The translations under genes were made by a program, and so were the position numbers. This document shows, in pieces, positions 3,316-45,285 of a stretch of 64,000 nucleotides of DNA. The DNA comes from Tessaracoccus palaemonis (GTDB lineage: Bacteria > Actinomycetota > Actinomycetes > Propionibacteriales > Propionibacteriaceae), in NCBI RefSeq assembly GCF_019316905.1, contig NZ_CP079216.1:496001-560000 (forward strand), read 5' to 3'. The notes below the pieces were generated by a model. The model had not been told where the DNA came from. It searched no databases and saw nothing but the letters and a program-made list of their open reading frames with translations. Each line of letters opens with the position of its first letter. Within the stretch, counting starts at the first letter, position 1.

Positions 3316-5079
3316 GTGACCAACTACCCGAAGATCGGCATCCGCCCCATCATCGATGGGCGTCGTCGAGGAGTCCGTGAGAGCCTCGAGGACCAGACGA
3401 TGAACATGGCCAGGCGCGTCGCCGCGCTGTACGAGGCCGAACTGCGGTACCCGGACGGCACCCCCGTCCAGGTCGTGATCGCCGACTCGACCATCGGCGG
3501 CGTCGCGGAGGCCCAGGCCACCGCGACCAAGTTCCGCCTCGAGGGCGTCGGCCTGACCCTGAGCGTCACCCCCTGCTGGTGCTACGGCACCGAGACCATC
3601 GACATGGACCGCACCATGCCGCACGCGATCTGGGGCTTCAACGGCTCCGAGCGGCCCGGCGCCGTCTACCTGGCCGCCGCCCTGGCCGGCCACGCGCAGC
3701 TCGGCATCCCCGCCTTCGGCATCTACGGCGAGCACGTCCAGGACGCCGACGACGAGACCATCCCCGACGAGGTCCGTTCCCGCCTGCTCGACTACGCCAC
3801 CGCCGGCCTCGCCGTCGCCCAGATGCGCGGCCGTTCCTACCTCGCCATGGGCGGGGTCTCCATGGGCATCGCCGGCTCCGTCGTCAAGGACGACTTCTGG
3901 AGCAAGTACCTCGGCATGCGCAACGAGTACATCGACATGAGCGAGTTCGACCGCCGCGTCCGCGAGAACATCTTCGACCCGGAGGAGTTCGACAAGGCAT
4001 ACGCCTGGATCCGCGAGAACTTCACGCAGGGCGAGGACTTCAACCCCGACGCGCTGAAGATGAGCGACAAGCACGAGGACTGGTGGATCTACTGCACCAA
4101 GATGACGCTCATCGCCCGTGACCTGATGGTCGGCAACCCGCGTCTCGCGGAGCTGGGCTTCGGCGAGGAGGCCGGGGGCCACGGCGCGATCGCCGCGGGC
4201 TTCCAGGGCCAGCGCCAGTGGACCGACGGCATGCCCAACGGCGACGTGATGGAGACCATCCTGAACACGCAGTTCGACTGGAACGGCCCCCGCCCGGCCT
4301 ACGTCATGGCCACCGAGAACGACGCCCTGAACGGCGCCTCCATGCTGTTCAACCACCTCCTGACGAACCAGGCGCAGCTGTTCAGCGACGTCCGCACGTT
4401 CTGGAGCCCCGAGGCCGTCGAACGCGTCACCGGGCACAAGCTCACCGGTCGCGCGTCGGGCGGCATCATCGACCTGCGCAACTCCGGCTCCACGACCCTC
4501 GACGGCACCTTCGCCGCCACGCAGGACGGCGAGCACGTCATCAAGGACTGGTGGGACCTCACCGAGGCCGACACGCAGGCCATGCTGGACGCCACCACCT
4601 TCCACCCGGCCAACGTCGAGTACTTCCGAGGCGGCGGCTTCTCCACGCACTTCCGCTCGGCCGGCGAGGTGCCCGTGACGATGTGCCGCATCAACCTGGT
4701 CGACGGGCTCGGCCCGGTCATCCAGATCGCGGAGGGCTGGACCGTCGAGCTGCCCGACGAGGTCGCCACGACCATCGAGGTCCGCACCGACCGCGCCTGG
4801 CCGACCACCTGGTTCGTGCCGAACCTGACGGGCGAGGGCGCGTTCACCAGCGTCTATGAGGTGATGAACCAGTGGGGCGCCAACCACGGCGCCATCGCGT
4901 ACGGCCACATCGGCGCCAAGCTGATCACGCTCGCCGCGATGCTCCGCATCCCGGTGAACATGCACAACGTGCCCGACGAGCAGGTGTTCCGCCCGAAGGC
5001 CTGGTCCGCGTTCGGCACGCGCGACCTCGAGGGCGCCGACTTCCGCGCCTGCGACGCCTACGGCCCGCTCTACGGCTGA
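3316..5079 (+). CDS. fucI: L-fucose isomerase
   Basis: Converts L-fucose to L-fuculose (also D-arabinose to D-ribulose) in the cytoplasm, using Mn2+. The 587-residue product is collinear with E. coli FucI (591 residues): N-terminal [50 protein letters not shown] and [12 protein letters not shown]. The metal-binding Glu and Asp lie in VMETILN and ATENDALNG, and the conserved His in NWGANHG. The GTG at 3316 is chosen because it follows GAGAAGG by eight bases and begins the conserved PKIGIRP region; earlier in-frame starts add a non-homologous proline-rich stretch. It sits between the importer and an FGGY kinase. Confidence 0.97.
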
Positions 5080-5153: not shown

Positions 5154-6566
5154 GTGCCCCCCGTCACCGCCCTCGCCGTCGACCTCGGCTCGTCGTCCGG
5201 GCGCATCGTCGCAGGAACGTTCGACGGCGCCACGATCACCGAGACCGAGGTCCACCGCTTCCCGCACCGGGCCACCCTCGTCGACGGGTACCTCTGCTGG
5301 GACCTCGACGCGATCTGGACCGAGATCGTCGCAGGATTGCGCGAGGCCGTCCAGCAGTTCCCGGGCGCGGTCAGCGTCTCCGTCGACACCTGGGGCGTCG
5401 ACTACGTTCCGCTCGACGCCGCCGACCTCCCCGTCACTCCCGGCCGCTGCTACCGCGACGAGCGCACCGTCCGCACGCACGATGCCTTCCGCTCCAGGTT
5501 GGATGACGAGGCCGCCTGGGCCGCGACCGGCATCGCACCGGCCACCATCAACACGGCCAACCAGCTGTTCGCCTTCCTCACGGAGGAGCCCGACGCCGCC
5601 GCCCGCACGGCCAGCGTCCTCCTGCTGCCCGACTACTTCACGTGGAAGCTGTCCGGTGTGAAGGGCTGGTCCCGCTCGCACGCCTCGAGCTCCGGCCTGT
5701 GCACGCCCGGAGTCCGTGACTTCTCCGACGACGTGCTCGGCGCACTGGGCATCCCGCGTGGCTGGTTCGGCGACGTCACCGCCGAGCTGGACGCCGTCGG
5801 TCCGTGCTCCGTCGACGGGCTGTCTGCTCTGACCGTCGTGCGCGCCGGCGCCCACGACACGGCCTGCGCCACGCACGCGCTGCTGCGCGACGTGACGCAG
5901 GAGTCATACTTCCTCAGCTGCGGGTCGTGGTCGGTGCTGGGAGTCCTGCGTGACGAGCCGTTGCTCAGCGCCCGCGCCCGCGAGATCGGCCTGACGAACG
6001 AGGCCACCGCCGACGGCGGGCTGCGGCCGCTGTTCAACATCACCGGGCTGTGGATCCTGCAGGAGTTGCAGCGCGAGTGGGCCGCCGAGGCCCGGGAGGC
6101 GGACATCGCCCGGCTGGTCGAGTTGGCCGCTGCCGCGCCGACGCTGGCCGCGCTGATCGATCCGGACGAGCCCCGTTTCGCGCAGGCGGGCGGGATGCTT
6201 GCCCGGATCGGTGAGGCGCTGGACGAGCAGGGCATCGACGTCGCGACGCTGACGCAGGGGGCGGTCGTCCGCCTGGTGCTGGAGTCGCTCGCGGAGCGCT
6301 ACGCCCGCGGGCTCGCCGAGCTGGCGGAGCTCACCGGCGCTCCCGCCCGTCAGCTGAACCTGATGGGCGGCGGGTCCCGGAACGCCCTGCTGTGCCAGCT
6401 GACCGCCGACCGGACGGGCGTGCCGGTGATCGCGGGGCCCGTCGAGGCATCCGCGCTGGGGTCGCTGATCGCGCAGCTCGAGGTGCTCGGCCATCTTGAC
6501 CCTGCCGACCGCAACGCGGTCATCGCGGCCACCGCCCGCACCGTCGAGTATCGGCCGCGGGCATGA
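5154..6566 (+). CDS. FGGY-family carbohydrate kinase, rhamnulokinase-like; probable L-fuculokinase
   Basis: A 470-residue sugar kinase. The N-terminal ATPase-fold motif is AVDLGSSSGRIVAG; the probable catalytic Asp is in SVDTWGVDYVPLD; the C-terminal nucleotide-binding motif is NLMGGGSRNALLCQLTAD. These sequences match rhamnulokinase (RhaB) better than E. coli FucK, but the immediate neighbour is fucI, so phosphorylation of L-fuculose at O1 is the likeliest role. The GTG at 5154 is preceded by CAGGAGA and begins the FGGY fold; upstream in-frame codons lie inside fucI in another frame. No class II fuculose-1-phosphate aldolase gene is visible, so the pathway is incomplete within the window. 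Confidence 0.88.
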   Translation: MPPVTALAVDLGSSSGRIVAGTFDGATITETEVHRFPHRATLVDGYLCWDLDAIWTEIVAGLREAVQQFPGAVSVSVDTWGVDYVPLDAADLPVTPGRCYRDERTVRTHDAFRSRLDDEAAWAATGIAPATINTANQLFAFLTEEPDAAARTASVLLLPDYFTWKLSGVKGWSRSHASSSGLCTPGVRDFSDDVLGALGIPRGWFGDVTAELDAVGPCSVDGLSALTVVRAGAHDTACATHALLRDVTQESYFLSCGSWSVLGVLRDEPLLSARAREIGLTNEATADGGLRPLFNITGLWILQELQREWAAEAREADIARLVELAAAAPTLAALIDPDEPRFAQAGGMLARIGEALDEQGIDVATLTQGAVVRLVLESLAERYARGLAELAELTGAPARQLNLMGGGSRNALLCQLTADRTGVPVIAGPVEASALGSLIAQLEVLGHLDPADRNAVIAATARTVEYRPRA

Positions 6567-6621: not shown

Positions 6622-6627
6622 GCAGGC

Positions 6628-7614
6628 ATGACCCCCGAATCCAGACGCGTGAACCTGCGCGACATCGCGGAGGACTCAGGCGTGTCCATCCAGACCGTGT
6701 CCCGCGTCGTGCGCGGGATCAACGTCGTCGCGGAGGAGACCCGCGTCCGGGTGATGGCCAGCGTCGAGCGCCTCGGGTACCGCCCGAACCTGGCGGCCCG
6801 CTCGCTGTCGGCGCACCGCACCGGCCAGGTCATCGTGCTGGTGGCCGTTCCTCTGCTCTACGGGCACGCCACCACGTTCGTCGAGGTCTGCCAGGAGCTG
6901 GCCGAGCTGCAGCTGCATGCCGTGGCCAGCATCGCGCCGCCGCGCGAGGGCGTCGTCCCGGACCTGCAGGACCTCATCCCCGTCACGGCCGACGGGGTCA
7001 TCATCCTGGGCGGTAGGACGGAGCCGTCGCCCTGGGTGGTGGACGTCGCCGCGCGGATGCCCACGGTCCTCATCGGACGCGTGCACTCGCTGCCACCACA
7101 CTCCGCCGGGGTCTCGCTCGATCACAGGGCCGGCGCCATCTCCGCAGTCAGGCACCTGATCGACCGCGGCGCCCGCCGGATCGTCCACGTGGCCGGGCCG
7201 CAGGACTGGATTGACGCCTACGAGCGGCTGGCCGGATACCACGAGGCCATCGCCGAGGCCGACCTCGAGCCGGTCGTGCTCCACGCCGGCTCCTGGGACG
7301 CCGCGGACGCCGGTCCGCTGATGGGGCAGCTGCCCGAGGGCACCGACGCGGTCTTCGCGGCCAACGACCAGCTCGCACTCGGCGCCATGACGGCGCTGCA
7401 GAAGCGCGGGCTGAGCGTGCCCGGAGACGTCCGCGTCGTCGGCTTCGACGACATGGCGGGCGTCGGGTTCCTGAATCCGGGCCTCACCACGGTCCGGCAG
7501 GACTTCCGTGCCATCGGACGTCTCGCGGTGCAGTCTCTGCACCGGCTGCTCACGGCCGACGAGGTCGGGGCGATCCGCGTCGACGCCGACCTGATCGTCC
7601 GGGAGTCGACCTGA
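6628..7614 (+). CDS. LacI-family transcriptional regulator of the fucose locus
   Basis: A 328-residue repressor-type regulator. Residues about 8-60 form the LacI helix-turn-helix (LRDIAEDSGVSIQTVSRVV, then the hinge-proximal RPNLAARSL); the remainder is a periplasmic-binding-protein-like effector domain ending in the usual VVGFDDM and TTVRQDF motifs. It lies between the kinase and fucU on the same strand with its own leaderless promoter, so it is probably the local regulator responding to a fucose-derived effector. The effector and its operators are not visible; the operon promoter is left of the window. Confidence 0.9.
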   Translation: MTPESRRVNLRDIAEDSGVSIQTVSRVVRGINVVAEETRVRVMASVERLGYRPNLAARSLSAHRTGQVIVLVAVPLLYGHATTFVEVCQELAELQLHAVASIAPPREGVVPDLQDLIPVTADGVIILGGRTEPSPWVVDVAARMPTVLIGRVHSLPPHSAGVSLDHRAGAISAVRHLIDRGARRIVHVAGPQDWIDAYERLAGYHEAIAEADLEPVVLHAGSWDAADAGPLMGQLPEGTDAVFAANDQLALGAMTALQKRGLSVPGDVRVVGFDDMAGVGFLNPGLTTVRQDFRAIGRLAVQSLHRLLTADEVGAIRVDADLIVREST

Positions 7615-7656: not shown

Positions 7657-8100
7657 ATGCTGTACGGACCCATGCTCCACCCCCAGCTGATCGGGGCGCT
7701 CGCACGCGCGGGCCACGGTGGCAAGATCCTGATCACCGACGGGAACTACCCGGGTGTCAGCGGCGCGAACCCGGCCGCCGAGCGGATCTGGCTCAACCTC
7801 GCGCCCGGCCTGCTGACCGTGTCGCAGGTCCTCGACGTCGTCAAGCAGACGATCCCGATCGAACAGCTGGGGCTCATGGTCCCCGCGGCCGACGCGAAGG
7901 GCATCGAGCTGCCGGAGTCGATCCCGGCCCACGACGAGTACCGCGCAGCCCTGCCCGGCGTCGAGGTGGCCATGATCCCGCGCTGGGACTTCTACGACGC
8001 GGCCAAGACGAGCGACGTGTCGGTCGTCGTCATCACCGCCGACCAGCGCCTCTACGCCAACGTCCTCCTCACCGTCGGAGTCCGCGCCCCTGGCGAGTGA
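7657..8100 (+). CDS. fucU: L-fucose mutarotase / RbsD-FucU family protein
   Basis: A 147-residue protein of the RbsD/FucU mutarotase family, which interconverts the alpha and beta anomers of L-fucose before isomerisation. Diagnostic features are the N-terminal LHPQLIGALARAGHGGKI and the following ITDGNYPG, and the C-terminal WDFYDAAKTSDVSVVVITAD. The ATG at 7657 follows GAGAGGAACACC. Its position after fucI, the kinase and the LacI gene favours FucU over ribose-specific RbsD. It is the last gene of the locus; the downstream gap to the convergent LysE gene is filled by repeats. Confidence 0.9.
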   Translation: MLYGPMLHPQLIGALARAGHGGKILITDGNYPGVSGANPAAERIWLNLAPGLLTVSQVLDVVKQTIPIEQLGLMVPAADAKGIELPESIPAHDEYRAALPGVEVAMIPRWDFYDAAKTSDVSVVVITADQRLYANVLLTVGVRAPGE

Positions 8101-25120: not shown

Positions 25121-26170
25121 TCAGGGGATCCGCTTCGTCCACTCGTCTGAGGAGAACTTCGTCTCCACGAGCTCCTTCGCCCTGGCCAGCTCGGACTCCG
25201 AGTAGTCGCGTCGGGTGGTCGTGTACAGCGACTCGAAGTGCGCGAGGAACGCCGCGATGATCTCGTCGCGGGGGAGCTGGGTCTGCGAGCGCAGCGGGTC
25301 CACGCGCTTGTTCGCCGACTTCGTCCCCTTGTCGGAGAGCTTCTCGCGCCCGATGCGCAGCACCTCGAGCATCTTGTCCGCGTCGATGTCGTAGGCCATG
25401 GTGACGTGGTGCACCACGACGCCGCCCGTCACGCGGCGCTGCGCGGCGCCAGCGATCTTGCCCTTGTCGGAGGCGATGTCGTTGAGGGGCACGTAGCGGG
25501 CGTTGACGCCGAGCGTCTTCAGCGCACCCATGACCCACTGGTCGAGGAACTCGTAGCTGCGCTCGAAGCTCAGCCCCTCGACGAGCGAGGTGGGGACGAC
25601 CAGGGAGTACGTGACGCAGTTGCCGGGCTCCATGAACATCGCTCCGCCGCCGGTGATGCGGCGCACGACGTTGATGCCGTGCCGCTCGCGCCCCTCGTCG
25701 TCGATCTCGTTCCTGTACGACTGGAAGGAGCCGATCACGACGAGCGGCTGGTCCCAGTCCCAGATGCGCAGGCTCGGGCGGATCTCGCCGTGCGCGAGCT
25801 CGGCGGCGAGGACCTCGTCGAGGGCGACGTGCATCCTCGGGTCCATCGTGACGGGGCCGATGACGTCGAACGTGAGGTCGGACCAGTCGATCGCGTGGCC
25901 GAGCGCGCGGCGCACCGCGATGCCGACGGCCTCGGGGGTGAACCCGATCATCCGGGTCACCGGGTCGAGTCGCCCTGTGATGGCCGCGGCGATGTCGGCG
26001 ACGGAGGAGGAGTCGGCGAGGCCGACGAGGGCGGAGTTGATGTCGTCGAGCGCCTCGTCGGGCTCGAGGAAGAAGTCGCCCGACACGAACGCCGAGGAGA
26101 TCACGCCCTCGGCCGTCTCGACGTCGACGGCGACCAGCTTGCCGCCAGGGACCTTGTATTCACCACGCAT
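25121..26170 (-). CDS. Lipoate-protein ligase family protein with N-terminal accessory domain
   Basis: A 349-residue member of the BPL/LplA/LipB family, which attaches lipoate or octanoate to E2 and GcvH proteins. The catalytic domain covers about residues 100-300: RRITGGGAMFM, CVTYSLVVP, and the lysine motif DKGKIAGAAQ followed by HHVTMAYDID. The first about 80 residues (GGKLVAVDVET, SGDFFLEPDEAL) look like the small accessory domain that is C-terminal in E. coli LplA, so the domain order is permuted. It is monocistronic with a leaderless-type promoter. It could lipoylate the E2 at 32756. Confidence 0.85.
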   Translation of the reverse strand: MRGEYKVPGGKLVAVDVETAEGVISSAFVSGDFFLEPDEALDDINSALVGLADSSSVADIAAAITGRLDPVTRMIGFTPEAVGIAVRRALGHAIDWSDLTFDVIGPVTMDPRMHVALDEVLAAELAHGEIRPSLRIWDWDQPLVVIGSFQSYRNEIDDEGRERHGINVVRRITGGGAMFMEPGNCVTYSLVVPTSLVEGLSFERSYEFLDQWVMGALKTLGVNARYVPLNDIASDKGKIAGAAQRRVTGGVVVHHVTMAYDIDADKMLEVLRIGREKLSDKGTKSANKRVDPLRSQTQLPRDEIIAAFLAHFESLYTTTRRDYSESELARAKELVETKFSSDEWTKRIP

Positions 26171-27451: not shown

Positions 27452-27475
27452 CCGGCGGCCCGCTGAGTCAACCTC

Positions 27476-27966
27476 GGTTCCCTGAGCCTGTCGAAGGGCC
27501 CTGAGCCAACCCCGGTTCCCTGAGCCAACCCCGGTTCCCTGAGCTTGTCGAAGGGTTGAGCCAATCCCGGTTCCCTGAGCCTGTCGAAGGGCCCTGAGCT
27601 TGTCGAAGGGTTGCCCGGGGCCGACGTCGGGCTGGGTCCTCTCGCTTCGCTCGAGGCTCCTCGACAGGCTCGGAGATCCGTCGCAAGGCCCGTCGAACGG
27701 CTGAGCTTGCCCCGGTTCCCCGAGCCTGCCCCGGTTCCCTGAGCTTGTCGAAGGGTTGCCCGGGGCCGACGTCGGGCTGGGTCCTCTCGCTTCGCTCAAG
27801 GCTCCTCGACAGGCTCGGAGATCCGTCGCAAAGCCCGTCGAACGGCTGCGCTTGCCCGGTTCCCTGAGCTTGTCGAAGGGCCCTGAGCTTGTCGAAGGGT
27901 TGCCCGGGGCCGACGTCGGGCTGGGTCCTCTCGCTTCGCTCAAGGCTGCTCGACAGGCTCGGAGAC
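27476..27966. repeat. Large array of R1 repeats with a 144-bp tandem superunit
   Basis: The region between the convergent serpin and helicase genes is almost all R1 units (GGTTCCCTGAGCTTGTCGAA and reverse CTCGACAGGCTCGGAGA). A longer unit starting TTGCCCGGGGCCGACGTCGG begins at 27611, 27756 and 27900, a period of about 144 bp. Translations in several frames are open but repetitive and are not genes. Confidence 0.85.
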
Positions 27967-27985
27967 CCAGGCCGTGAGCAGGCGA

Positions 27986-28089
27986 AGACGCCACCCTTAT
28001 CGACCGACGCTACCGCTCTCGACACATGCCACCGCCAGGGCGGTGGCATGTGTGAAGAAGGGAGGCGTTTGTCGATAAGGGTGGCGTCT
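27986..28089. repeat. R3 nested palindrome, copy 1, with perfect 19-bp ends
   Basis: AGACGCCACCCTTATCGAC (27986-28004) is mirrored exactly by the sequence ending at 28089. Inside, ACACATGCCACCGCC (28022-28036) and GGCGGTGGCATGTGT (28039-28053) form a perfect 15-bp hairpin with an AG loop. There is no coding capacity. Similar elements lie at 40470 and 47953. Confidence 0.85.
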
Positions 28090-31088: not shown

Positions 31089-31766
31089 TCAGTCGTCGGG
31101 GAGGGACCGGGTGCCGTAGACCGACTCCCAGTCACTGATGAACGTGTCGACGGCGTTGGTGATGTCCGGCACCGACAGCGCCTGGCGCAGCAGCTTGGGC
31201 GACAGCGTGACGGCATCCGCCCCGGCCTCCAGGGCGTGCGACACCTGCACGATGTTCTTGAAGCTGGCGGCCATGATCTTGCAGGGGGCGTCGAAACGAC
31301 GGATGAAACCGGACAGCGCGGTCAGCGTGCCCTTGGTGTCGATGTCAAGCGACTGCATCCGGTTGTAGTAGGGCGCGAGGTAGTCGACGCCGGACGCGAT
31401 GGCGAGGAAGCCCTGCGTCTTGGAGTAGATCGCGGTCGCGGTCACGTGGACGCCCTCCGCCTTGAGGGTGCGCATGGCGAGGATGCCGGCCTCGGTGGTG
31501 GGGATCTTGGGGTAGACCTTTTCGTCGATCTTGTCGAGCAGCCTGTGCGCGTCGTCGATCATGCCCTGGGCCGTCTTCTGCAGCACCTGCACGTGCAGCG
31601 TGCGGTCGGGGCCGATGATCTCGCGGATCCGGCGGAGGTGCTTGTAGACGTCGACCCGGCCCTCCTTCTTCAGGATCGACGGGTTCGTCGTCACGCCCGT
31701 GACGGGGTAGATGGGCGTGAGGCGCTCGATGTCGTCGAGGTTGGCAGTGTCGAACAGGATGTCCAT
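31089..31766 (-). CDS. Transaldolase-like fructose-6-phosphate aldolase family protein
   Basis: A 225-residue member of the small transaldolase/FSA family, similar in size to E. coli FSA (220). The Schiff-base Lys is K87 in VYPKIPTTEAG, and GVTTNPSIL (residues about 24-32) and TAIYSKTQGFLA are family positions. FSA enzymes cleave or form ketose phosphates at C3-C4 with dihydroxyacetone or hydroxyacetone as donor; some relatives act as true transaldolases. GAAAGGCGACC precedes the ATG. It is divergent from the DeoR-E2-E3-E1 operon across 221 bp with shared TTCGAA motifs, so it probably belongs to the same pathway. Confidence 0.87.
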   Translation of the reverse strand: MDILFDTANLDDIERLTPIYPVTGVTTNPSILKKEGRVDVYKHLRRIREIIGPDRTLHVQVLQKTAQGMIDDAHRLLDKIDEKVYPKIPTTEAGILAMRTLKAEGVHVTATAIYSKTQGFLAIASGVDYLAPYYNRMQSLDIDTKGTLTALSGFIRRFDAPCKIMAASFKNIVQVSHALEAGADAVTLSPKLLRQALSVPDITNAVDTFISDWESVYGTRSLPDD

Positions 31767-31903
31767 GGTCGCCTTTCGAGGTGCGGAAGCTGGTCCATTC
31801 CACCACGGAGCCGGGTGCGGAGCGCCAGTCCCGAGCGGGGCGGATGCTCAAACACCGGCCTCGTCGCGGGACTGTCCCAGCCTATGCCCAGGTTTTCCGA
31901 ACT

Positions 31904-31987
31904 TTCGAATCGCCCCCTGTTTTGAAACCGCTTCGAAACTGCTAGGCTCGTGAAACGAAAGCTAATCGAAGACAACGAGGTTTCGAA
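31904..31987. promoter_or_regulatory. Three TTCGAA palindromes: candidate DeoR operators
   Basis: TTCGAA occurs at 31904-31909, 31932-31937 and 31982-31987, each in a CTTTCGAA/CTTCGAAAC/TTTCGAAG context, with GTGAAACGAAAG between the last two. The middle copy lies between the -35 region and the -10 of the DeoR promoter and the last abuts the DeoR start codon, positions suited to autorepression. Inference from pattern and context. Confidence 0.55.
31943..31948 (+). promoter_or_regulatory. -10 hexamer TAGGCT of the DeoR-E2-E3-E1 operon
   Basis: TAGGCT with an upstream TTGAAA (31922-31927) gives a plausible sigma-A promoter; the predicted leader is about 33 nt. Confidence 0.55.
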
Positions 31988-32740
31988 GTGACGCAGGAGA
32001 GAGCCAGCCGCGAAGAGGCGATCCTCACGCGCCTGACTGACGACGGCACGCTCACCGTCGCCTCCATGGCCGAGAAGCTCGGCGTGTCCGAGGTCACCAT
32101 CCGCGGCGATCTCCGCGCCCTCGAACAGCGCGGCATGCTGGTGCGGACGCGTGGCGGCGCACGCCCCAGCTCCTTCAAGACGATCCTCCAGCGCGAGAAG
32201 GTCAACGTCGAGGCCAAGCAGCGCATCGCGGCCTTCGCCGCCTCGATGATCACCGACGGTGACACGGTCATGATGGAGGCAGGGACCACCGTCGCCTCGA
32301 TCACCGGTCACCTCGCGCAGCGCCGCGACGTCCAGATCGTCACCAACTCGACGCTCGTGTTCAACGTCGCCCGCACCAACCCCGCGCTCAACATCATCCT
32401 CGCCGGGGGGGTGTTCCGCCGGGAGTCCGAGTCGCTCGTCGGTCCCGACGCCGAGCGCACCGTCTCCGACTTCAACACCCGTCTCGCCTTCCTCGGCACC
32501 GACGGGTTCTCCCCCGAACGGGGGCTCACCACCCGGTTCGTCGACGGCGCCCAGGTCGCCGCGCTCATGAGCCGCCGCGCCGAGGAGACCTGGCTGGTCG
32601 CCGACTCCTCCAAGTTCGGCCAGGCCGGGTTCGTCAGTTTTCTGCCCCTCGACAAGGTCACCGGGATCATCACAGATTCCGGGCTCGTCGCAGGGGCCGC
32701 TTCAGCACTGCAAGAGCACACGCGTGTGTGCATCGTCTAG
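31988..32740 (+). CDS. DeoR-family transcriptional regulator
   Basis: A 250-residue sugar-responsive repressor. Residues about 6-60 are the DeoR winged helix-turn-helix (REEAILTRLTDDGTLTVASM, SEVTIRGDLRALEQRG), and the C-terminal domain (DeoRC) has the sugar-phosphate-binding pattern DTVMMEAGTT, TNSTLVFNV and LGTDGFSPERG. The start is GTG at 31988, preceded by ACGAGG. It is the first gene of the operon; the E2 gene follows after 15 bp. DeoR regulators usually respond to phosphorylated sugars, which supports a sugar-phosphate substrate for the operon. Confidence 0.92.
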   Translation: MTQERASREEAILTRLTDDGTLTVASMAEKLGVSEVTIRGDLRALEQRGMLVRTRGGARPSSFKTILQREKVNVEAKQRIAAFAASMITDGDTVMMEAGTTVASITGHLAQRRDVQIVTNSTLVFNVARTNPALNIILAGGVFRRESESLVGPDAERTVSDFNTRLAFLGTDGFSPERGLTTRFVDGAQVAALMSRRAEETWLVADSSKFGQAGFVSFLPLDKVTGIITDSGLVAGAASALQEHTRVCIV

Positions 32741-32755
32741 GGAAGGTCAACGTCT

Positions 32756-34150
32756 ATGGCAACCGTCGTAGTCATGCCGCAGCTCGGCAACTCTGTCGAG
32801 TCCTGCCTGATCGTGTCGTGGCAGGTGGGTCTCGGCGACGAGATCGCCGAGAACGCCATCGTGTGTGAGGTCGAGACCGACAAGGCCTCGATGGAGGTCC
32901 CGACCTCGGCCGCCGGCACCGTACTCGCCATCCTCTGGGACGAGGGCGACGACGTCCCCGTCAAGGAGCCGCTCCTGGTGGTCGGCGCGGCGGGCGAGGA
33001 CCCGGCCGATGCCCTGGCCGCAGCCGGCTGGAAGGGCAGGGGCGACGACGAAGCTGCCATCCCCGGAGCCGCCGCCGCAGCCGAGGCCGCCCCCGAGGCT
33101 GAGGCCCCCGCCGCCCCGGTCGAGCGCGTCGCCTCCACCGGCGCCTCCAGCCCGCGGGCCCGCACGCTGGCCGCAGCCAACCACCTCGACATCAACGACG
33201 TCGCCGAAGGCTCCGGCCCCGGCGGACGCGTCATCGAGCGCGACGTCACCGCTGCCCTCGCCCACGCAACCAAGGGATCGGCCCGCGCCGGCGCCCACGG
33301 CTCGGGCGCCGCCGGCACCGGCCTCGGCGGCCGCGTCACGACGGCGGACCTCGCCGCAGGCACACCGGCCGTGGACACCGACGGCGACGTTTCGACAGGC
33401 TCAACGAACCGGGTGGGGGCAGCGCCGGTGACCGGCTCCCGCGAGTTCCCCGGCGCCTCGACGACGACGCCGCTCAAGGGCATCCGCAAGACCATCGCGG
33501 ACCGCATGATGCATTCGCTGGCCAGCTCCGCCCAGCTGACCTACACCTCGACGGCCAACGCGGCCGGCCTGCTCGCGCTCCGCAAGAGGCTCAAGGGCTC
33601 GCCCGAGGAGCTCGGCCTCAGCAAGGTGACCATCGGCGACCTGGTCGGCTATGCCGCCGTCAAGGCCGCGGCCAAGAACACCGGCCACAACGCCCACCTC
33701 GCCGACGGGAAGCTCACCGTCTTCGAGCAGGTCCACCTCGGCTTCGCGTGCGATACCCCGCGCGGCCTGCTGGTCCCAACGGTCCGCAATGCCTCCGAGA
33801 TGGGGCTGCGCGAGTTCTCCGCCGTCAGCAAGGACCTCGCACAGCAGGCCATCGGCGGCAGCATCAGCCCCGACCTGCTGCAGGGCGCCACCTTCACGGT
33901 CAGCAACCTCGGCGGCTTCGGCATCGAGTCCTTCACCCCGCTGCTGAACGTGCCCCAGGTCGCCATCCTCGGCGTCGACGCGATCTTCCCGCGCGCCGTG
34001 GTCAACGCCGACGGCAGCTTCGGCGTCGAGCAGCGCATCGGCTTCTCGCTGACCGCCGACCACCGCGTGATCGACGGCGCCGACGCCGCCCGCTTCCTGC
34101 AGGACCTCGTCGCCTACGTCGAGAACATCGACATCACCGTCCTCGGCTGA
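32756..34150 (+). CDS. Dihydrolipoamide acyltransferase (E2) of a 2-oxoacid/acetoin-type dehydrogenase complex
   Basis: A 464-residue E2. Residues 1-78 are a single lipoyl domain with the lipoylated Lys at K43 (VETDKASMEV). An Ala/Glu/Pro linker follows, then a peripheral-subunit-binding domain (about residues 131-170, SPRARTLAAANHLDINDV) that holds E1/E3, a second linker, and the catalytic acyltransferase core (about 230-464) with the catalytic DHRVIDGADAARFL near the C-terminus. The second linker includes a stretch encoded by an R1 repeat (33390-33412). AGGGAAGG precedes the ATG. It is co-transcribed with E3 and a fused E1. Confidence 0.93.
   Translation: MATVVVMPQLGNSVESCLIVSWQVGLGDEIAENAIVCEVETDKASMEVPTSAAGTVLAILWDEGDDVPVKEPLLVVGAAGEDPADALAAAGWKGRGDDEAAIPGAAAAAEAAPEAEAPAAPVERVASTGASSPRARTLAAANHLDINDVAEGSGPGGRVIERDVTAALAHATKGSARAGAHGSGAAGTGLGGRVTTADLAAGTPAVDTDGDVSTGSTNRVGAAPVTGSREFPGASTTTPLKGIRKTIADRMMHSLASSAQLTYTSTANAAGLLALRKRLKGSPEELGLSKVTIGDLVGYAAVKAAAKNTGHNAHLADGKLTVFEQVHLGFACDTPRGLLVPTVRNASEMGLREFSAVSKDLAQQAIGGSISPDLLQGATFTVSNLGGFGIESFTPLLNVPQVAILGVDAIFPRAVVNADGSFGVEQRIGFSLTADHRVIDGADAARFLQDLVAYVENIDITVLG
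33390..33412 (+). repeat. R1 repeat inside the E2 coding sequence
   Basis: TTTCGACAGGCTCAACGAAC matches the intergenic R1 core and encodes Ser-Thr-Gly-Ser-Thr-Asn-Arg in the linker before the E2 catalytic core. The insert keeps the frame. Confidence 0.7.
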
Positions 34151-34167
34151 GACAAGGAGCAACGCAC

Positions 34168-35538
34168 ATGAGCACCACCTTCGACGTCATCGTTCTGGGC
34201 GGCGGCCCCGGCGGCTACATCGCCGCCGAGCGCCTCGGGCACGCGAAGAAGAACGTCCTCCTCATCGAGGCCGACGCGCTGGGCGGCACCTGCCTGAACG
34301 TCGGCTGCATCCCCACCAAGGCGCTGCTGAACGCGGCGAAGACCTACGAGCACGCCGTGCACGGCGCCCAGCTGGGCGTCCGCGTCGACGGCGCCAGCGT
34401 CGACTGGGCCGAACTGCAGAAGTGGAAGAACAAGACCGTCGCGACGCTGGTCGGCGGCGTCGGCGCGGCCGAGAAGAAGGCCGGCGTCACCGTCGTCAAG
34501 GGCTACGGTCGCTTCGACGGCCCGGGTCGCGTCACGGTCGACGGCACCACCTACACGGCCGAACACGTCATCCTGGCCACCGGCTCCGTCCCGGTCATGC
34601 CGCCCATCCCCGGCGCCGCGGACAACCCCCGCGTCCTCGACTCCACCGGCATGCTGTCGGTCCCCGAGATCCCGGCCCGCCTCGCCGTCATCGGCGGCGG
34701 CGTCATCGGGCTCGAGTTCGCCAGCCTGTTCGCGATGCTCGGCTCCGAGGTCACCGTCATCGAGATGCTGCCCGAGGTCGTCCCCTTCATGGACGACGAG
34801 CTCGCAGCCCAGCTCCGCAAGGGCCTCGCCGACATCGACGTGAAGCTCGAGTGCAAGGTCACCAGCATCGACGGCGGCACCGTCCACTACGAGACCATGG
34901 CCGGCACCGCCGAGTCGGTCGACGCCGACGTCGTGCTGATGGCCGTCGGCCGCCGCCCCGCCGTCGCCGGCTGGGGCGCCGAGGACTCCAGCCTGGAGTT
35001 CTCCGGCAAGGGCGTGGTCGTCGACGACCGGATGCGCACCAACCTGCCCAACGTGTGGGCCGTCGGCGACGTCACCGGCCGCTCGCTGCTGGCGCACGCC
35101 GCCTACCGGATGGGCGAGATTGCGGTGGCGAACATCCTCGACCCCGAGGCGTTCCGCCGCGGCGAGATCATGCGCTGGAACACCATCCCGTGGGCCGTGT
35201 ACTCCAACCCGGAGGCGGCCGGCATCGGGCTGACCGAGTCCCAGGCGAGGGCCAAGGGGATCGACGTCAAGTCCGTGACCGTCCCCGGCTACCTGTCCGG
35301 CCGCTTCGTCGCCGAGTCCGGCGTCAAGGCCCCCGGCGCCGCCAAGCTCATCTGGGACGGCGCCACCGGCCAGGTGCTCGGCATCCACGTGCTCGGCTCC
35401 TACGCCTCCGAGATGATCTGGGGCGCCTCCGTCGTACTCGAGACCGAAGTCAGCATCACCGACCTGCGCCAGGTCGTCTTCCCCCACCCCACCGTCAGCG
35501 AACTCATCCGTGAGGCCGCCTGGGCCGCCCAGGCCTGA
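34168..35538 (+). CDS. Dihydrolipoamide dehydrogenase (E3)
   Basis: A 456-residue flavoprotein that reoxidises dihydrolipoyl E2 with NAD+. It has the FAD-binding [17 protein letters not shown], the redox-active disulfide in [15 protein letters not shown] (about residues 38-52), the NAD-binding [13 protein letters not shown] (about 170-182), and the C-terminal interface His-Glu in [16 protein letters not shown] 34168 follows ACAAGGAGC; upstream in-frame codons lie inside the E2 gene in another frame. The gene uses the same ACAAGGAG translation signal as its neighbours, and sits between E2 and E1. Confidence 0.94.
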
Positions 35539-35561
35539 GCCCCGACAAGGAGACACGAAAC

Positions 35562-38021
35562 ATGCCAAAGAACCTCATCGTCGACCCGAGCAACGTCCGC
35601 TCCGCCTCGACCATCACCGCCCCCGAGATCCCGGTCAACCAGTACCGGCCGAACTTCGCCGCAGAGCTCGACAAGTACGGCAAGCAGGGGCTCATCGACA
35701 TCCTGCACGACATGATCGCCGTGCGGCAGTTCGAGACCATGCTGAACTCGATCAAGACCACCGGCGCGTGGAACGGCGTCGAGTACAACCACCGCGGCCC
35801 CGCGCACCTCTCCATCGGGCAGGAGTCGGCCGTCGTCGGCCAGGCCTCGCAGCTCGACCCGGAGGACTTCCTGTTCGGCTCGCACCGCAGCCACGGCGAG
35901 ATCCTCGCCAAGTGCTTCTCCGCGGCCCGCAAACTCGACCCCGCGCAGGTCGAGGACATCATGAAGACGTTCCTCGACGGTGAGACGCTCGCCTTCGCCG
36001 AGCAGGTCGGCTACGACAGCGCCGCCGACCTGACCGAGAACTTCATCCTCTACGGCACCGTCGCCGAGACGTTCGCCCGCAAGGCCGGCTTCAACCGCGG
36101 CCTCGGCGGCTCCATGCACGCCTTCTTCGCGCCCTTCGGCTCGATGCCGAACAACGCGATCGTCGGCGGCTCGGCCGACATCGCCACCGGCTCGGCGCTT
36201 TTCAAGCTGATCAACCGCAAGTCCGGCATCGTCATCGCCAACATCGGCGACGCCTCCATGGGCTGCGGCCCCGTCTGGGAGGCCATGGCCATGGCGTCCA
36301 TGGACCAGTACCGCAGCCTCTGGAACGACGGCGTGAACGGCAACCCGCCGATCTGGTTCAACTTCTTCAACAACTTCTACGGCATGGGCGGCCAGACCTC
36401 CGGCGAGACCATGGGCTACGACATCCTCGCCCGCGTCGGCATGGGCGTGAACCCCGAGGCCATGCACGCCGAGCGCGTCGACGGGCTCAACCCGCTCGCC
36501 GTCGCCGACGCCGTCACCCGCAAGCGCCAGCTCCTCGTCGAGGGTCGCGGCCCGGTGCTGACCGACACCATCACCTACCGCTTCTCCGGCCACTCGCCGT
36601 CCGACGCGTCCTCCTACCGCACGCGCGAGGAGGTCGAGCTGTGGGAGCAGCACGACGGCCTGAAGAACTACGCCGCCTACCTCGTCGAGAACGGCGTCCT
36701 CAGCCAGGGCGAGGTCGACGACCTCCAGGCCAAGTTCGATGAGCGTCTCACGAAGGTGATCGCCATCGCCACGAAGGACGAGGTCTCCTCGCCGCGCGTC
36801 GGGATGGACTTCATCGAGTCCGTCATGTACTCCAACGGCAACGTCGAGGCCTTCGACGACCGCACCCCCGAGCTCAAGCAGCCGCTCGAGGAGAACGCCC
36901 GCGTCAAGTCGCTGGCCGCCAAGGTCCGCACCGCCACCGACGCCAACGGCAAGCCCGTCAGCAAGGCCAAGGCCTACTCCTACCGTGACGCGCTGTTCGA
37001 GGCCGTCGCCCACCGCTTCGCCACCGACCCGACCCTGGCCGCCTGGGGCGAGGAGAACCGCGACTGGGGCGGCGCGTTCGCCGTCTACCGCGGCCTGACC
37101 GAGCTGCTGCCGTACCACCGCCTGTTCAACTCGCCCATCTCCGAGGCCGCCATCATCGGCGCCGGCGTCGGCTACGCCCTGTCCGGCGGCCGCGCGATCG
37201 TCGAGCTGATGTACTGCGACTTCCTCGGCCGCGCCGGCGACGAGATCTTCAACCAGGCCGCCAAGTGGCAGTCCATGTCCGCCGGCCTGCTGAAGATGCC
37301 GCTCGTCATGCGCGTCTCCGTCGGATCCAAGTACGGCGCCCAGCACTCGCAGGACTGGGCGGCGCTGGTCGCCCACATGCCCGGGCTCAAGGTCTACTAC
37401 CCGTCGACCCCGTACGACGCCAAGGGCATGATGAACCTCGCCCTGCGCGGCACCGATCCCGTGGTGTTCTTCGAGTCCCAGCTGCTGTACGACAAGGCTG
37501 AGGAGTTCGTCGCCGACGGCGTCCCGACCGGCTACTACGAGGTGCCCGAGGGCGAGCCCGTCGTGCGCCGCGAGGGCACCGACCTGACCGTCGCGGTCAT
37601 CGGCCCCACCCTCTACCGCGTGATGGAGGCCGCCGACCTGCTGCAGGAGAAGTACGGCATCTCCACCGAGGTCATCGACCTGCGCTTCGTCGCCCCGCTG
37701 AACCTCGACCCGATCGTCGAGTCGGTGAAGAAGACCGGCCGCCTCGTGCTGACCTCCGACGCGGTGGACCGCGGCTCGTTCCTCCACACCGTCGCGTCGC
37801 AGATCCAGACCCTGGCCTTCGACCACCTCGACGCGCCCGTCACGGTCGTCGGCTCCCGCAACGCCATCACCCCGGCGGCCGAGCTGGAGAAGGAGTTCTT
37901 CCCGCAGCCCGAGTGGCTGCTCGACGCGATCCACGAGCGCGTGCTGCCGCTCAAGGGCCACGTCCCGACCACCAACCAGACCGACGCCGAGATCGCCCGC
38001 CGTTCGCGGCAGGGCCTCTGA
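35562..38021 (+). CDS. Thiamine-diphosphate-dependent E1 component, alpha and beta fused
   Basis: An 819-residue E1. The first half (about 40-420) is an E1-alpha/TPP domain: [21 protein letters not shown], and the diphosphate-binding region [10 protein letters not shown] through FNFFNNFYG (GDA replaces the usual GDG). The second half (about 470-815) is an E1-beta domain: [33 protein letters not shown] (family segment), [13 protein letters not shown], and the C-terminal [10 protein letters not shown]. Pyruvate and acetoin dehydrogenases usually have separate alpha and beta chains. With E2 and E3 it would make an acyl-CoA by oxidative cleavage; the partners of this operon argue for an acyloin or 1-deoxyketose rather than pyruvate. 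Confidence 0.9.
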
Positions 38022-38032
38022 CAAGGAGAGAC

Positions 38033-39379
38033 ATGCTCCGCGAGCGCATCAACGACCCGTCGCTGACGCCCGCCGAGCGCGTGGCGGCCCTGCAGGAGTA
38101 CCTGCAGGGCTCGCCCGCGTTCCCGGACTTCGTGACCGAGTCGAACAACCACGTCCACACCATCTACAGCTTCAGCCCGTACACGCCCGCGATGGCGGCG
38201 CTGCGGGCCCGCGAGGCCGGGCTGATGGTTGTCGGCTCCGTCGACCACGACTCGGCCGCGGGCGCGGGCGAGATGGCGGCCGCCGCCGACGCCGTCGGCC
38301 TCGGGTCGGTGACCGGCTTCGAGTGCCGCGTCTACCTGTACAGCGCCGATGAGGTCGCCGAGGGGCGCGCCCCGCTGCACGACCGCAAGCTCAACAACCC
38401 CGACACCGCGGGCATCGCCTACATGACCGTCCAGGGGATCCCGGCGTCGCAGCGGGAGCGGGTCGCCGAATACCTGGCGCCCATCCGGGCCGCCCGCCTC
38501 GCGCGGACCGCGCGGATGGTTGAGCGGGCCAACGCGATCCTCGAGGGCCTCGGGGCGCCCGTGCTGGACTTCCAGCGCGACGTCGTCGACCGGTCGCAGT
38601 ACGAAGGCGGCGGAGAGGTGACCGAGCGGCACCTGCTCGCAGGCATCGCCGACAAGCTCATCGAGCGCTACGGCCGCGGCCGGGCGCTGGTGGACGGGCT
38701 CGGCGAGCTGGGCCTCGAGCTGTCGGACAAGGTCGCGGCGCAGCTGGGCGACGAGGCGAACCCGTACCTGGAGTTCGACCTGCTCGGTGTCATGAAGGCC
38801 GGCTTCCTCGACCAGATCTACCTCGTCCCGGACCGGGAGGAGTGCCCGACGATGGCGGAGGTCGCGGCCTTCGCGACGTCCGTCGGCGCCATTCCTGCCT
38901 ACGCCTACCTCGGCGACGTGACCGCGTCGCCGACGGGCGACAAGAAGGCCGAGAAGTTCGAGGATGACTTCCTCGACGAGCTGGTCGCCGAGCTCCGCCG
39001 GCTCGGGATGCCCGCCATCACGTACATGCCGCCGCGCAACACGGCGGAGCAGATGGCGCGCCTCGCGTCGCTCGCGGCCGACAACGGCCTCCTCGAGGTG
39101 TCCGGCGTCGACATCAACACCCCGCGCCAGCAGTTCAACTGCCCGGAGCTGCAGCGCCGGGAGCTGGCGCACCTGAACGACGCGACGTGGGCGATGGTCG
39201 CGCACGAGCGGCTCGCCGAGGCCGACCTCGACCTCGGTCTGTTCGCCGAGGCCGGCCCGCTGGCGTCGCTCCCGCTGTCCGAGCGGGTCCGGCGCTACAG
39301 CGCCGTCGGGCGGTCGCTCGTGGCCGGCACCAGCACCGTCGGCGAGGCCGCCGATGCCCTGAGGAAGGAAGCAGCATGA
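38033..39379 (+). CDS. PHP-domain metal-dependent hydrolase of unknown substrate
   Basis: A 448-residue protein. A PHP fold is indicated by the metal-binding N-H-V-H (H40, H42) followed by SVDHDS (D71-H72), and later conserved His/Asp positions such as SGVDINTPRQ. PHP proteins are phosphoesterases (histidinol phosphatase, polymerase exonuclease, small-molecule phosphatases). The ATG follows ACAAGGAGAGAC, 11 bp after the E1 stop; an earlier in-frame region overlaps E1. Its stop overlaps the SDR start. In this setting it may dephosphorylate or hydrolyse a pathway intermediate, which is inference. I do not recognise a named family. Confidence 0.75.
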   Translation: MLRERINDPSLTPAERVAALQEYLQGSPAFPDFVTESNNHVHTIYSFSPYTPAMAALRAREAGLMVVGSVDHDSAAGAGEMAAAADAVGLGSVTGFECRVYLYSADEVAEGRAPLHDRKLNNPDTAGIAYMTVQGIPASQRERVAEYLAPIRAARLARTARMVERANAILEGLGAPVLDFQRDVVDRSQYEGGGEVTERHLLAGIADKLIERYGRGRALVDGLGELGLELSDKVAAQLGDEANPYLEFDLLGVMKAGFLDQIYLVPDREECPTMAEVAAFATSVGAIPAYAYLGDVTASPTGDKKAEKFEDDFLDELVAELRRLGMPAITYMPPRNTAEQMARLASLAADNGLLEVSGVDINTPRQQFNCPELQRRELAHLNDATWAMVAHERLAEADLDLGLFAEAGPLASLPLSERVRRYSAVGRSLVAGTSTVGEAADALRKEAA

Positions 39380-40461
39380 GCATCCTGGAGATCGCGCCGC
39401 TCGTCCGCGGCGCCTACCTGGCCGCCCGCAACGTGCCGGTGATCCTGTCGCCGTCGGACGAGGCGGAGCTGGACCTGAGCGTCGAGTCGGTGGATCAGCT
39501 GGCCGGGGCGTTCCCCGTCGAGCTGCCGGACACCGTCGCGGTGACGGTCGCGGGGGAGCGGCACGCGTTCCGCGCCCACACCGTCGGAGCTGTGTCGCCG
39601 CTGCCGCACGGCAAGGACGCTGAAGCCTCGGCGGCCGAGCCACGGTCGCGGGTCGTCGCCGGGAAGGTGGCGCTCGTCACCGGAGGCGCGCAGGGGTTCG
39701 GGGCGGAGATCGTCCGTGGGCTTGTCGCCTCCGGGGCCTTCGTCTACATCGCCGACCTGAACGCCGACGGGGCTGCGAAGCTTGCCGACGAGCTCGGCCC
39801 GCACACCGCGGCGCTGACGGTCAACGTCGCCGATGAGGAGTCGGTGGCGGCCATGACCGGGCAGATTGCGGCCACCACGGGCGGCCTCGACCTCGTCGTG
39901 TCCAACGCCGGCATCGTCCGTGCGGGCAGCGTGCTGGAGCAGGATGCCTCCGCGTTCCGGCTCACCACCGACATCAACTACGTCGCGTTCTTCCTTGTCA
40001 CCAAGCACCTGGGCGGCCTGATGGCCGCGCAGCGTCGCACGGCGCCGACCTGGACCACCGACATCGTGCAGATCAACTCCAAGTCCGGCCTGGTCGGCTC
40101 GAACAAGAACGGCGCGTACGCCGGGTCGAAGTTCGGGGGCATCGGGCTGGTGCAGAGCTTCGCGCTGGAGCTGGTCGAGCACGGTATCAAGGTGAACGCG
40201 ATCTGCCCGGGCAACTTCCTCGATGGCCCGCTGTGGTCCGACCCCGACCGCGGCCTGTTCGTGCAGTACCTGCGCTCCGGCAAGGTGCCCGGCGCGACGA
40301 CGATCGAGGAGGTCCGCCGCTTCTACGAGGCCAAGGTGCCCCTCAACCGCGGCACCTACGGGTCCGACGTCATGCGGGCGCTGTACTACCTCGTCGAGCA
40401 GGAGTACGAGACCGGCCAGGCGCTCCCCGTCACCGGCGGCCAGGTGATGCTGAGTAGCTGA
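39376..40461 (+). CDS. SDR oxidoreductase, sorbitol-6-phosphate 2-dehydrogenase-like, with N-terminal extension
   Basis: A 361-residue protein. Residues about 95-361 are a classical short-chain dehydrogenase: cofactor motif VTGGAQGFGAEIV, SNAG, catalytic Ser in INSKSG and Tyr/Lys in AYAGSKFGG. The stretch SKSGLVGSNKNGAY, NAICPGNFLDGPLW, RFYEAKVPLNRG and the ending TGGQVML resemble sorbitol-6-phosphate dehydrogenase (SrlD). The N-terminal about 90 residues are an extra domain that I do not recognise. The ATG at 39376 overlaps the PHP stop (ATGA) with AGGAAGGA upstream. It is the last gene of the operon; likely polyol or polyol-phosphate oxidation to a ketose. Confidence 0.87.
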   Translation: MSILEIAPLVRGAYLAARNVPVILSPSDEAELDLSVESVDQLAGAFPVELPDTVAVTVAGERHAFRAHTVGAVSPLPHGKDAEASAAEPRSRVVAGKVALVTGGAQGFGAEIVRGLVASGAFVYIADLNADGAAKLADELGPHTAALTVNVADEESVAAMTGQIAATTGGLDLVVSNAGIVRAGSVLEQDASAFRLTTDINYVAFFLVTKHLGGLMAAQRRTAPTWTTDIVQINSKSGLVGSNKNGAYAGSKFGGIGLVQSFALELVEHGIKVNAICPGNFLDGPLWSDPDRGLFVQYLRSGKVPGATTIEEVRRFYEAKVPLNRGTYGSDVMRALYYLVEQEYETGQALPVTGGQVMLSS

Positions 40462-41766: not shown

Positions 41767-41943
41767 CTTCATGCCCGCCCGGCGTGGCTGCCATGCTTCG
41801 CCTCCCCGGCGAAACGCGGCTGACATGGCTCTTCCTGCACCTTCTCCACAGGCGGAGGACGTGGACCTGCACGTCTGCACGGCCGGCCTCTGTTAGCGGG
41901 GGGCGGGCTCAGCCCGGGACCGGTGGCGTGGTTGGATTGCCCC

Positions 41944-43437: not shown

Positions 43438-43447
43438 AGGAGGACCA

Positions 43448-45004: not shown

Positions 45005-45015
45005 TCGGAACAGCC

Positions 45016-45276: not shown

Positions 45277-45285
45277 GGAAGAAGA

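Follow-up and report, generated by a model that had tools for sequence, protein, structure and literature searches.

Gene content and neighborhoods suggest that the cluster at 31089-40461 of the Tessaracoccus palaemonis window (the whole 64-kb stretch of DNA analyzed) most likely breaks down fucose and rhamnose via a carbonyl shift and a cleavage to acetyl-CoA, rather than via the classical aldolase. Its six-gene operon probably provides the later steps of an L-fucose route that needs no aldolase and that in relatives would also serve L-rhamnose.

The operon and the nearby fucose locus

The six operon genes and the divergent FSA-like gene of the original prediction are real, and on a sequence check all seven are open frames at the positions claimed for them. 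The features of this region are:

25121..26170, minus strand: lipoate-protein ligase LplAB (NF053751, 574 bits, cut-off 550)
31089..31766, minus strand: FSA/TalC-like small transaldolase, divergent and accessory (PF00923, 150 bits; PRK12656, 285.3, cut-off 214)
31898..31987, no strand: shared upstream region with CGAAA-type repeats
31988..32740, plus strand: DeoR-family repressor, AgaR/GlpR/SrlR-like (PF00455, 164.8 bits; PF08220, 52.6 bits)
32756..34150, plus strand: E2 with lipoyl, E3-binding and acyltransferase domains (PF00364, PF02817 and PF00198, above cut-off)
34168..35538, plus strand, ATG at 34168: E3 dihydrolipoyl dehydrogenase (TIGR01350, 456.7 bits, cut-off 408.8)
35562..38021, plus strand: fused alpha-beta E1, a thiamine diphosphate enzyme (PF00676, PF02779, PF02780)
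38033..39379, plus strand, ATG at 38033: divergent PHP-type metalloprotein (NF041577, 31 bits, below cut-off)
39376..40461, plus strand: SrlD-like SDR (best NCBIfam model sorbitol-6-phosphate dehydrogenase)

The PHP and SDR genes overlap by 4 bases. By its domain content the E1-E2-E3 complex encoded by the operon is complete, and LplAB, a putative member of the system, could lipoylate its E2. The top PDB matches of the FSA-like protein are fructose-6-phosphate aldolases, and in profile searches the DeoR protein scored below the cut-offs of both the AgaR and the SrlR models.

Two claims made for the signals around these genes were overstated. A translation signal said to be almost uniform, ACAAGGAG, stands ahead of only three of the six operon genes (E3, E1 and PHP), and of the TTCGAA motifs said to be shared by the divergent genes, three copies do lie between them (31904-31987), out of 7 in the 64-kb window versus ~4 expected from base composition. 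The region 31898..31987 is a likely operator to which the DeoR protein would bind, with a sugar phosphate as the signal that it would sense; AACGAAAG or its complement occurs in 11 of the 21 upstream stretches compared. We rejected a regulon defined by common operators: the repeats are present upstream of deoR, and among the upstream stretches compared none was seen ahead of the zinc dehydrogenase gene (ADH) of the same genome.

The fucose locus that had been noticed near the operon is also real, and occupies 1-8100 of the window:

37..1059, plus strand: ribose-type ABC sugar ATPase, truncated at the window edge (RbsA model matched from position 165)
1068..2054, plus strand: ABC sugar permease (PF02653; homology begins about here)
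2131..3186, plus strand: periplasmic sugar-binding protein, RbsB/RhaS-like
3319..5079, plus strand: L-fucose isomerase FucI (NF008220, 993.4 bits, cut-off 775; TIGR01089, 926.5, cut-off 850)
5169..6566, plus strand: FGGY kinase (homology begins about here; TIGR02627 rhamnulokinase, 336 bits, below the cut-off of 528)
6628..7614, plus strand: LacI-family regulator
7657..8100, plus strand: RbsD/FucU family mutarotase (PF05025, 99.8 bits)

We propose that the FGGY kinase is the L-fuculokinase, as it adjoins FucI both here and in the Schaalia-type loci described below. FucI and this adjoining kinase favor the sugar itself as the growth substrate over the free polyol (L-fucitol or L-rhamnitol) that had been suggested. 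They indicate that the polyol phosphate would be an intermediate, whose formation would fall to a distinct SorE-like reductase absent from the original prediction. The SorE-type zinc dehydrogenase of this genome is encoded outside the window and not in the operon (G000:C1:194513-196117). The zinc dehydrogenases (ZnADHs) of other loci are full-length homologs of an annotated SorE (47.7-48.6% identity over 96% to 97%), and the ADHlong of the window genome is 23-27% identical to seven ZnADHs in an alignment that contains a long insertion.

Conservation of the operon and the missing aldolase

Genes in the order DeoR-E2-E3-E1-PHP-SDR turn up repeatedly, in Actinobacteria, Spirochaetes and Kiritimatiellae and also in an Atribacteria MAG; being kept in four such distant groups, this arrangement is more than chance. 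Among the best 80 of 510 PHP relatives, E1 and SDR accompany PHP in 55 loci, including all 22 of the actinobacterial ones, and the co-occurrence of E1, PHP and SDR is thus widespread; a zinc dehydrogenase related to SorE (L-sorbose-1-phosphate reductase) is also found in 47 of the 80. The neighbors of these loci are L-fucose or L-rhamnose genes, which bears out the deoxyhexose context proposed for the window. In eight Schaalia/Actinomyces-type loci the genes stand in a row as FucI-FucK-LacI-FucU-DeoR-E2-E3-E1-PHP-SDR-ADH; FucI also occurs in two further loci (L040 and L110) and RhaA in another (L104).

A survey of 36 genomes of the genus shows E1 in 30, and FucI and ADH in 29 each; the six genomes without E1 lack both of the latter, each of which is absent from one further genome. 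The co-occurrence has p=3.6e-6, a value that overstates independence given the relatedness of genomes within one genus. Three of the genus genomes searched (G002, G005 and G009) have no class II aldolase, and all three carry FucI, E1 and ADH. Likewise, none was found in G476, G480 and G484, which carry the operon and FucI. The two PF00596 matches of the window genome are an AraD beside AraA (score 369.5, cut-off 251) and a rhamnulokinase-RhaD-type fusion; as both class II aldolases are thus accounted for, we rejected AraD or a hidden FucA as the missing enzyme in this genome. All 30 class II aldolase loci that entered the comparison, the window genome's own AraD and 29 fetched elsewhere in the genus search (other genomes or contigs), are AraD-like (43-100%), with four further strong matches lying outside the comparison.

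These patterns bear on the alternative that fucose follows the classical route via an unrecognized aldolase, either the FSA-like protein or a promiscuous AraD or RhaD, while the substrate of the operon is some other polyol or deoxy compound of the shared environment. The window genome has an FSA-like gene, an AraD and the RhaD-type fusion available for this, and a RhaD-like class II aldolase gene is present in 13 of the 80 best loci, 12 of them spirochaetal, which means that the operon does not replace the aldolase everywhere. However, E1 tracks FucI in the genus, three FucI-bearing genomes lack any class II aldolase, and FSA-like genes accompany just four of the 80 loci, a count by which we also set aside the FSA-like protein as the core aldolase and as the recycling step originally assigned to it. 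We regard this alternative as very improbable.

The genus Pontiella offers a physiological comparison. The operon is present in the fucose grower F21T and, presumably, in the fucose grower F1T, while a non-grower on fucose is without E1 and FucI; across the genus, 5 of the 17 genomes with E1 lack FucI, and one genome with FucI lacks E1. For F1T on fucose, acetate, ethanol, H2 and lactate are listed as the main products and 1,2-propanediol is not among them, and its authors found neither fucK nor aldA (PMC7356697). For F21T, 1,2-propanediol is a product of fucose and a fucA gene is reported (PMC7356697), so that this strain probably also runs the classical route. As far as these reported traits go, Pontiella physiology fits the proposed route.

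A proposed carbonyl-shift route

We posit that the route would run from fuculose-1-phosphate through a deoxyhexitol-1-phosphate and a 1-deoxyketose-6-phosphate to acetyl-CoA and a tetrose-4-phosphate. L-fuculose-1-phosphate, made by FucI and the kinase, would be reduced at C2 by the zinc dehydrogenase, as SorE does on L-sorbose-1-phosphate, to give a 6-deoxyhexitol-1-phosphate. The SDR, which we propose oxidizes C5 of this compound, adjoining the methyl group, would then yield a 1-deoxyketose-6-phosphate, an acyloin; this step is modeled on SrlD, whose ketone is distal to the phosphate. E1 would attack the ketone and cleave C4-C5, the acetyl group passing via lipoyl-E2 to CoA while E3 makes NADH. 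The tetrose product would be D-threose-4-phosphate if the C2 reduction gives the fucitol configuration, and L-erythrose-4-phosphate otherwise. As fuculose-1-phosphate and rhamnulose-1-phosphate differ solely at C4, the future aldehyde carbon, one operon can serve both sugars.

The resemblance of the SDR to sorbitol-6-phosphate dehydrogenase holds up: this is its closest NCBIfam model (208.1 bits, below the cut-off of 307 yet the best) and its closest PDB structure (5o3z, E 1.6e-43). We propose the fused E1 as the acyloin-cleaving subunit, and cleavage of the 1-deoxyketose-6-phosphate to acetyl-CoA and an aldose phosphate, close to what had first been predicted, remains the best reading. It might be argued that the locus is a deoxyhexose operon whose complex is an ordinary dehydrogenase for downstream pyruvate or another 2-oxoacid, with PHP, SDR and ADH unrelated to C-C cleavage; indeed, the best models and structures for E1 are those of PDH/BCKDH, and both E2 and E3 are conventional. 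Yet E1 scores below the cut-off of every pyruvate dehydrogenase E1 model that it matched (PRK09212, 243.9 against 321; PRK11892, 242.3 against 454; TIGR03182, 169.6 against 393.85; TIGR03181, 107 against 411.35), the genome has another E1 alpha with an adjoining E1 beta, and an ordinary dehydrogenase gives no account of FucI-bearing genomes without a class II aldolase, so we consider this explanation unlikely. The checks that the original prediction had named as able to refute it did not do so: E1 stays under these cut-offs, and PHP and SDR do co-occur with it.

The PHP protein is harder to place. It matches PF02811 with 15.1 bits, below the Pfam cut-off of 26.4, and 19 of 31 relatives match that model at E up to 1; its match to a solved structure (PDB 3e0f) is limited to the N-terminal third. 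PHP metal motifs are HxH, DHD and a final DxH. In the 31-member alignment H40, H42, D71, H72, E97, H200, D360 and N362 are invariant, such that the last motif has Asn in place of the usual His. We propose that it may act as a tetrose-phosphate isomerase or phosphatase. With little probability, PHP might instead dephosphorylate first, after the carbonyl shift, and leave E1 to cleave a free 1-deoxyketose to acetyl-CoA and free tetrose: its relatives are phosphoesterases and its gene stands between those of E1 and SDR, but the ATP of the kinase would be wasted, and the sub-threshold family score and N362 speak against it. Returning to cleavage of the phosphorylated acyloin, we lean, if only slightly, toward the whole combination, which would make this a third way for bacteria to catabolize deoxyhexoses: a reductase and a dehydrogenase working as a pair to move the C2 carbonyl of fuculose-1-phosphate or rhamnulose-1-phosphate to C5, a dedicated fused-E1 thiamine complex cleaving the product to acetyl-CoA and tetrose phosphate, one enzyme set for both sugars, and PHP as a new metal-dependent tetrose-phosphate isomerase.

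Relationship to known systems and implications

Full-text searches of the open-access literature, which did not cover subscription papers, turned up no account of this route, although it has parallels in several known systems. First, it shares with the FucI-FucK-FucA and RhaA-RhaB-RhaD pathways an isomerase, an FGGY kinase, a mutarotase, a sugar ABC transporter and a ketose-1-phosphate intermediate, but is without FucA and would yield acetyl-CoA and tetrose phosphate as opposed to DHAP and L-lactaldehyde. Second, SorE, a ketose-1-phosphate reductase, followed by SrlD, a hexitol-6-phosphate dehydrogenase, shifts a carbonyl from C2 to C5, and homologs of both are found here; however, the substrate would be a 6-deoxy compound, and its 1-deoxyketose-6-phosphate product cannot join glycolysis as fructose-6-phosphate does. 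Third, the acetoin dehydrogenase system (AcoA, AcoB, AcoC, AcoL) is an E1-E2-E3 complex that splits an acyloin into acetyl-CoA plus aldehyde, as we propose here, but the present E1 is a fused alpha-beta chain of 819 residues in a sugar-phosphate context, and the E2 beside it belongs to the 2-oxoacid acyltransferase type, with 60.9 bits to the AcoC-type model (PRK14875, cut-off 307). Fourth, Rhizobium plasmids carry fused E1s that share 53% identity with this one over 97% of the length and likewise lie beside kinases and sugar ABC transporters; in contrast, their clusters have a lipoyl-domain protein and an alpha/beta hydrolase, and no PHP relative was found on any of the plasmids searched. Finally, RhaEW, a RhaD-type aldolase fused to an SDR of a related family, aligns through the end of its aldolase half with an N-terminal stretch of one relative (L031), but a profile search found no PF00596 aldolase domain in the window SDR, which was therefore rejected as a RhaEW member.

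Mucin, milk glycans and algal fucoidan are all rich in L-fucose, and whether this sugar ends as propanediol and lactate or as acetyl-CoA decides what the neighbors of its consumers are fed. A set of 23 gut genomes from Bacteroidetes, Clostridia and some Actinobacteria, with fucose genes but without fuculose-phosphate aldolase, has been listed as unsolved (PMC5583593); for the actinobacterial members of that list, this operon offers a ready candidate. If true, the route would also account for the growth of Pontiella desulfatans on fucose with propanediol absent from the main products listed (PMC7356697), and its acyloin-cleaving enzyme would be new, as possibly would a tetrose-phosphate isomerase.

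Gene complement and conservation of the operon

The seven genes named by the original prediction are all there and all intact, as judged by their reading frames and domain matches, in a window genome that consists of a single contig of 3.2 Mb:

31988-40461: operon of DeoR, E2, E3, fused alpha-beta E1, a divergent PHP-type metalloprotein (PHP) and SDR
31089-31766, minus strand: divergent FSA-like small transaldolase
25121-26170: lipoate-protein ligase

The window opens with an 8.1-kb stretch that carries an L-fucose locus (ABC transporter, FucI, FGGY kinase, LacI and FucU). Immediately downstream of the operon region lies a transcarboxylase-like gene set of propionibacterial make-up (41923-45645; 5S-like carboxylase domain, carboxyl transferase and biotin carrier). 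A repeat region (27444-28089) comprises about 2.8 copies of a 145-base unit and 19-base CCCTGAGC(C/T)TGTCGAAGGG-type units, with a 51-base inverted repeat inside it (27986-28089).

A scan of 84,980 species genomes with a PHP alignment built from four sequences recovered 510 stretches encoding PHP relatives, and the window proteins were mapped onto the best 80 of these. Besides PHP, which is present in 80/80 by construction, these best 80 of 510 loci carry SDR (73), E1 (57), E3 (52), E2 (51), DeoR (43), either form of a zinc dehydrogenase (ADH; 47), FucI (10), RhaA (9) and the FSA-like gene (4), counts that are lowered because contig ends cut many loci. Sorted by record title, they fall into spirochaetes (50), actinobacteria (22), Verrucomicrobia/Kiritimatiellae (4), Atribacteria (1) and untitled records (3), with E1 and SDR together in 29/50, 22/22, 2/4, 1/1 and 1/3, respectively. 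A whole-genome E1 search covered 16 of the 23 E1-less loci, five genomes of a distant family in the same phylum, and L105, whose E1 adjoins the locus. It recovered a fused E1 in 18/22 genomes: elsewhere in the genome for 13 of the 16 E1-less loci, and, among the five distant-family genomes, on PHP's contig at 57-58% in two, only at 38% in two and not at all in one.

Association with fucose and rhamnose genes

The order FucI-FucK-LacI-FucU-DeoR-E2-E3-E1-PHP-SDR-ADH recurs in eight loci (L042, L044, L045, L048, L049, L050, L053, L067) from Schaalia, Actinomyces and one record titled Sanguibacter, and in none of the eight does the run from FucI to ADH contain an aldolase gene. Elsewhere, ADH, an ABC transporter, FucI and FucK lie behind SDR (L040), a spirochaetal locus has a RhaB-type kinase and FucI (L110), and another has a kinase, RhaA and a RhaD-like gene (L104); the nine RhaA-bearing loci of the best 80 of 510 are all spirochaetal. 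In three Treponema loci (L071, L073, L084) an FGGY kinase lies directly 3' of PHP, without an SDR; hence PHP may act together with the kinase there.

Within the window's genus, 36 genomes were common to the E1, FucI and ADH searches. E1 (at least 80% identity, in one case as fragments) is present in 30, being missing from G001, G011, G012, G013, G017 and G035; these six lack FucI and ADH as well, FucI being additionally missing from G030 and ADH from G014 (60% complete). For E1 with FucI, Fisher's exact p is 3.6e-6, uncorrected for kinship. Three more genus genomes, outside the E1 search, carry FucI and ADH. The E1 frame is in pieces in one genome of the genus (G008:C1 near 1331-1334 kb).

Pontiella offers published growth data. 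According to extracts of the descriptions (PMC7356697, PMC6388578), P. sulfatireligans F21T (locus L109) grows on L-fucose and L-rhamnose, converts fucose to acetate, ethanol, H2 and 1,2-propanediol, and has fucA in a figure legend; P. desulfatans F1T grows on both sugars, its main listed fucose products being acetate, H2, ethanol and lactate; and the authors did not identify fucK in either strain, nor aldA in F1T. An extract on P. agarivorans NLcol2T (PMC10880615) reports no growth on either sugar. Of 28 Pontiella genomes, 17 carry E1 and 13 carry FucI (12 have both, 5 E1 alone, 1 FucI alone and 10 neither; p 0.002). The genome taken as F1T (G493) has the order DeoR-E2-E2-E3-E1-PHP-SDR-ADH-kinase-transketolase; in that taken as NLcol2T (G492), neither E1 nor FucI was found. 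As the absence of FucI alone would also explain the lack of growth, NLcol2T supports the link of the operon to fucose, not the mechanism. Pontiella-type operons show an additional short match to the E2 N-terminal lipoyl domain ahead of E3 (L109 5672-5950; L165 15939-16184). Taken together, the operon is very probably real, widely conserved and linked to deoxyhexose catabolism.

Class II aldolases and a candidate reductase

Class II aldolases were sought with PF00596, which takes in FucA, RhaD and AraD. It has no match in 5/39 genus genomes: G002, G005 and G009, which possess E1, FucI and ADH; G001, which lacks all three; and the only 60% complete G014. Outside the genus it has none in 4/18 genomes searched (G476, G480, G484, G488), with FucI accompanying the operons of G476 and G480 and present in the genome of G484. 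The window genome has two matches: one is AraD, adjoining AraA, and the other a rhamnulose-type fusion of kinase and aldolase. A RhaD-like gene near PHP in 13 of the best 80 of 510 loci (12 spirochaetal, one of Atribacteria) argues against aldolase absence as a general rule.

L113 1009-3474 (G000:C1 near 76 kb): fusion of a rhamnulokinase-type FGGY kinase and a RhaD-type class II aldolase, 821 residues
G000:C1:194513-196117 of the window genome, away from the operon: long-form ADH adjoining an LsrR/DeoR-type regulator

Most non-actinobacterial operons have the zinc dehydrogenase, positioned between or behind SDR. Three plasmid genes annotated sorE (L-sorbose 1-phosphate reductase) match its short form at 47.7-48.6% identity over 96-97%, and unnamed zinc dehydrogenases of the same plasmid set reach 49-50%. 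The longer form takes the equivalent place in actinobacterial operons; the two share 23-27% identity, aligned along their length around an insertion.

A candidate acyloin-cleaving route

Together, SorE and SrlD relocate the C2 carbonyl of L-sorbose-1-phosphate to the carbon distal to the phosphate, and acyloins are the type of substrate that acetoin dehydrogenases use. Acting on a 6-deoxy sugar phosphate, the ADH-SDR pair would yield CH3-CO-CHOH-, an acyloin, whose cleavage would give acetyl-CoA and tetrose-4-phosphate, at a net balance of minus one ATP, plus one NADH and no lactaldehyde. Since fucose and rhamnose differ solely at C4, which would turn into the aldehyde carbon, one operon could serve both. 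The small transaldolase beside the window operon and the transketolase beside the Pontiella operon are in keeping with a C4-phosphate product. Homology and context point to the reactions assigned to ADH, SDR and E1, and that assigned to PHP is a guess. This carbonyl shift with acetyl-CoA-forming cleavage is the best-supported mechanism, and we consider it probable.

Compared with models of named families, E1 scores below the cut-offs of every PDH E1 model matched, E2 below that of AcoC, SDR below that of SrlD and PHP below that of Pfam PHP. Among plasmid E1s, the closest found (53%) belong to Rhizobium and Pleomorphomonas and are likewise fused; their genes adjoin a lipoyl-domain protein, an alpha/beta hydrolase and sugar kinases (L156, L157, L158), and these clusters may form a second family of systems that cleave sugar acyloins. 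SDRs of distant relatives (L031 73-1317; L028 2834-4078) have an N-terminal stretch matching the last part of the aldolase portion in RhaD-SDR fusions, as if the operon SDR had been derived from such a fusion after aldolase loss.

The excerpted text of a rhamnose review (PMC3870299) gives isomerase, kinase and aldolase variants and one non-phosphorylated route, with no mention of Treponema, PHP or a dehydrogenase complex; the open-access papers searched yielded no description of the proposed route. As proposed, the route is a new pathway variant composed of known enzyme families; proof of a tetrose-phosphate product and of an isomerase role for PHP would make it a third kind of deoxyhexose pathway.
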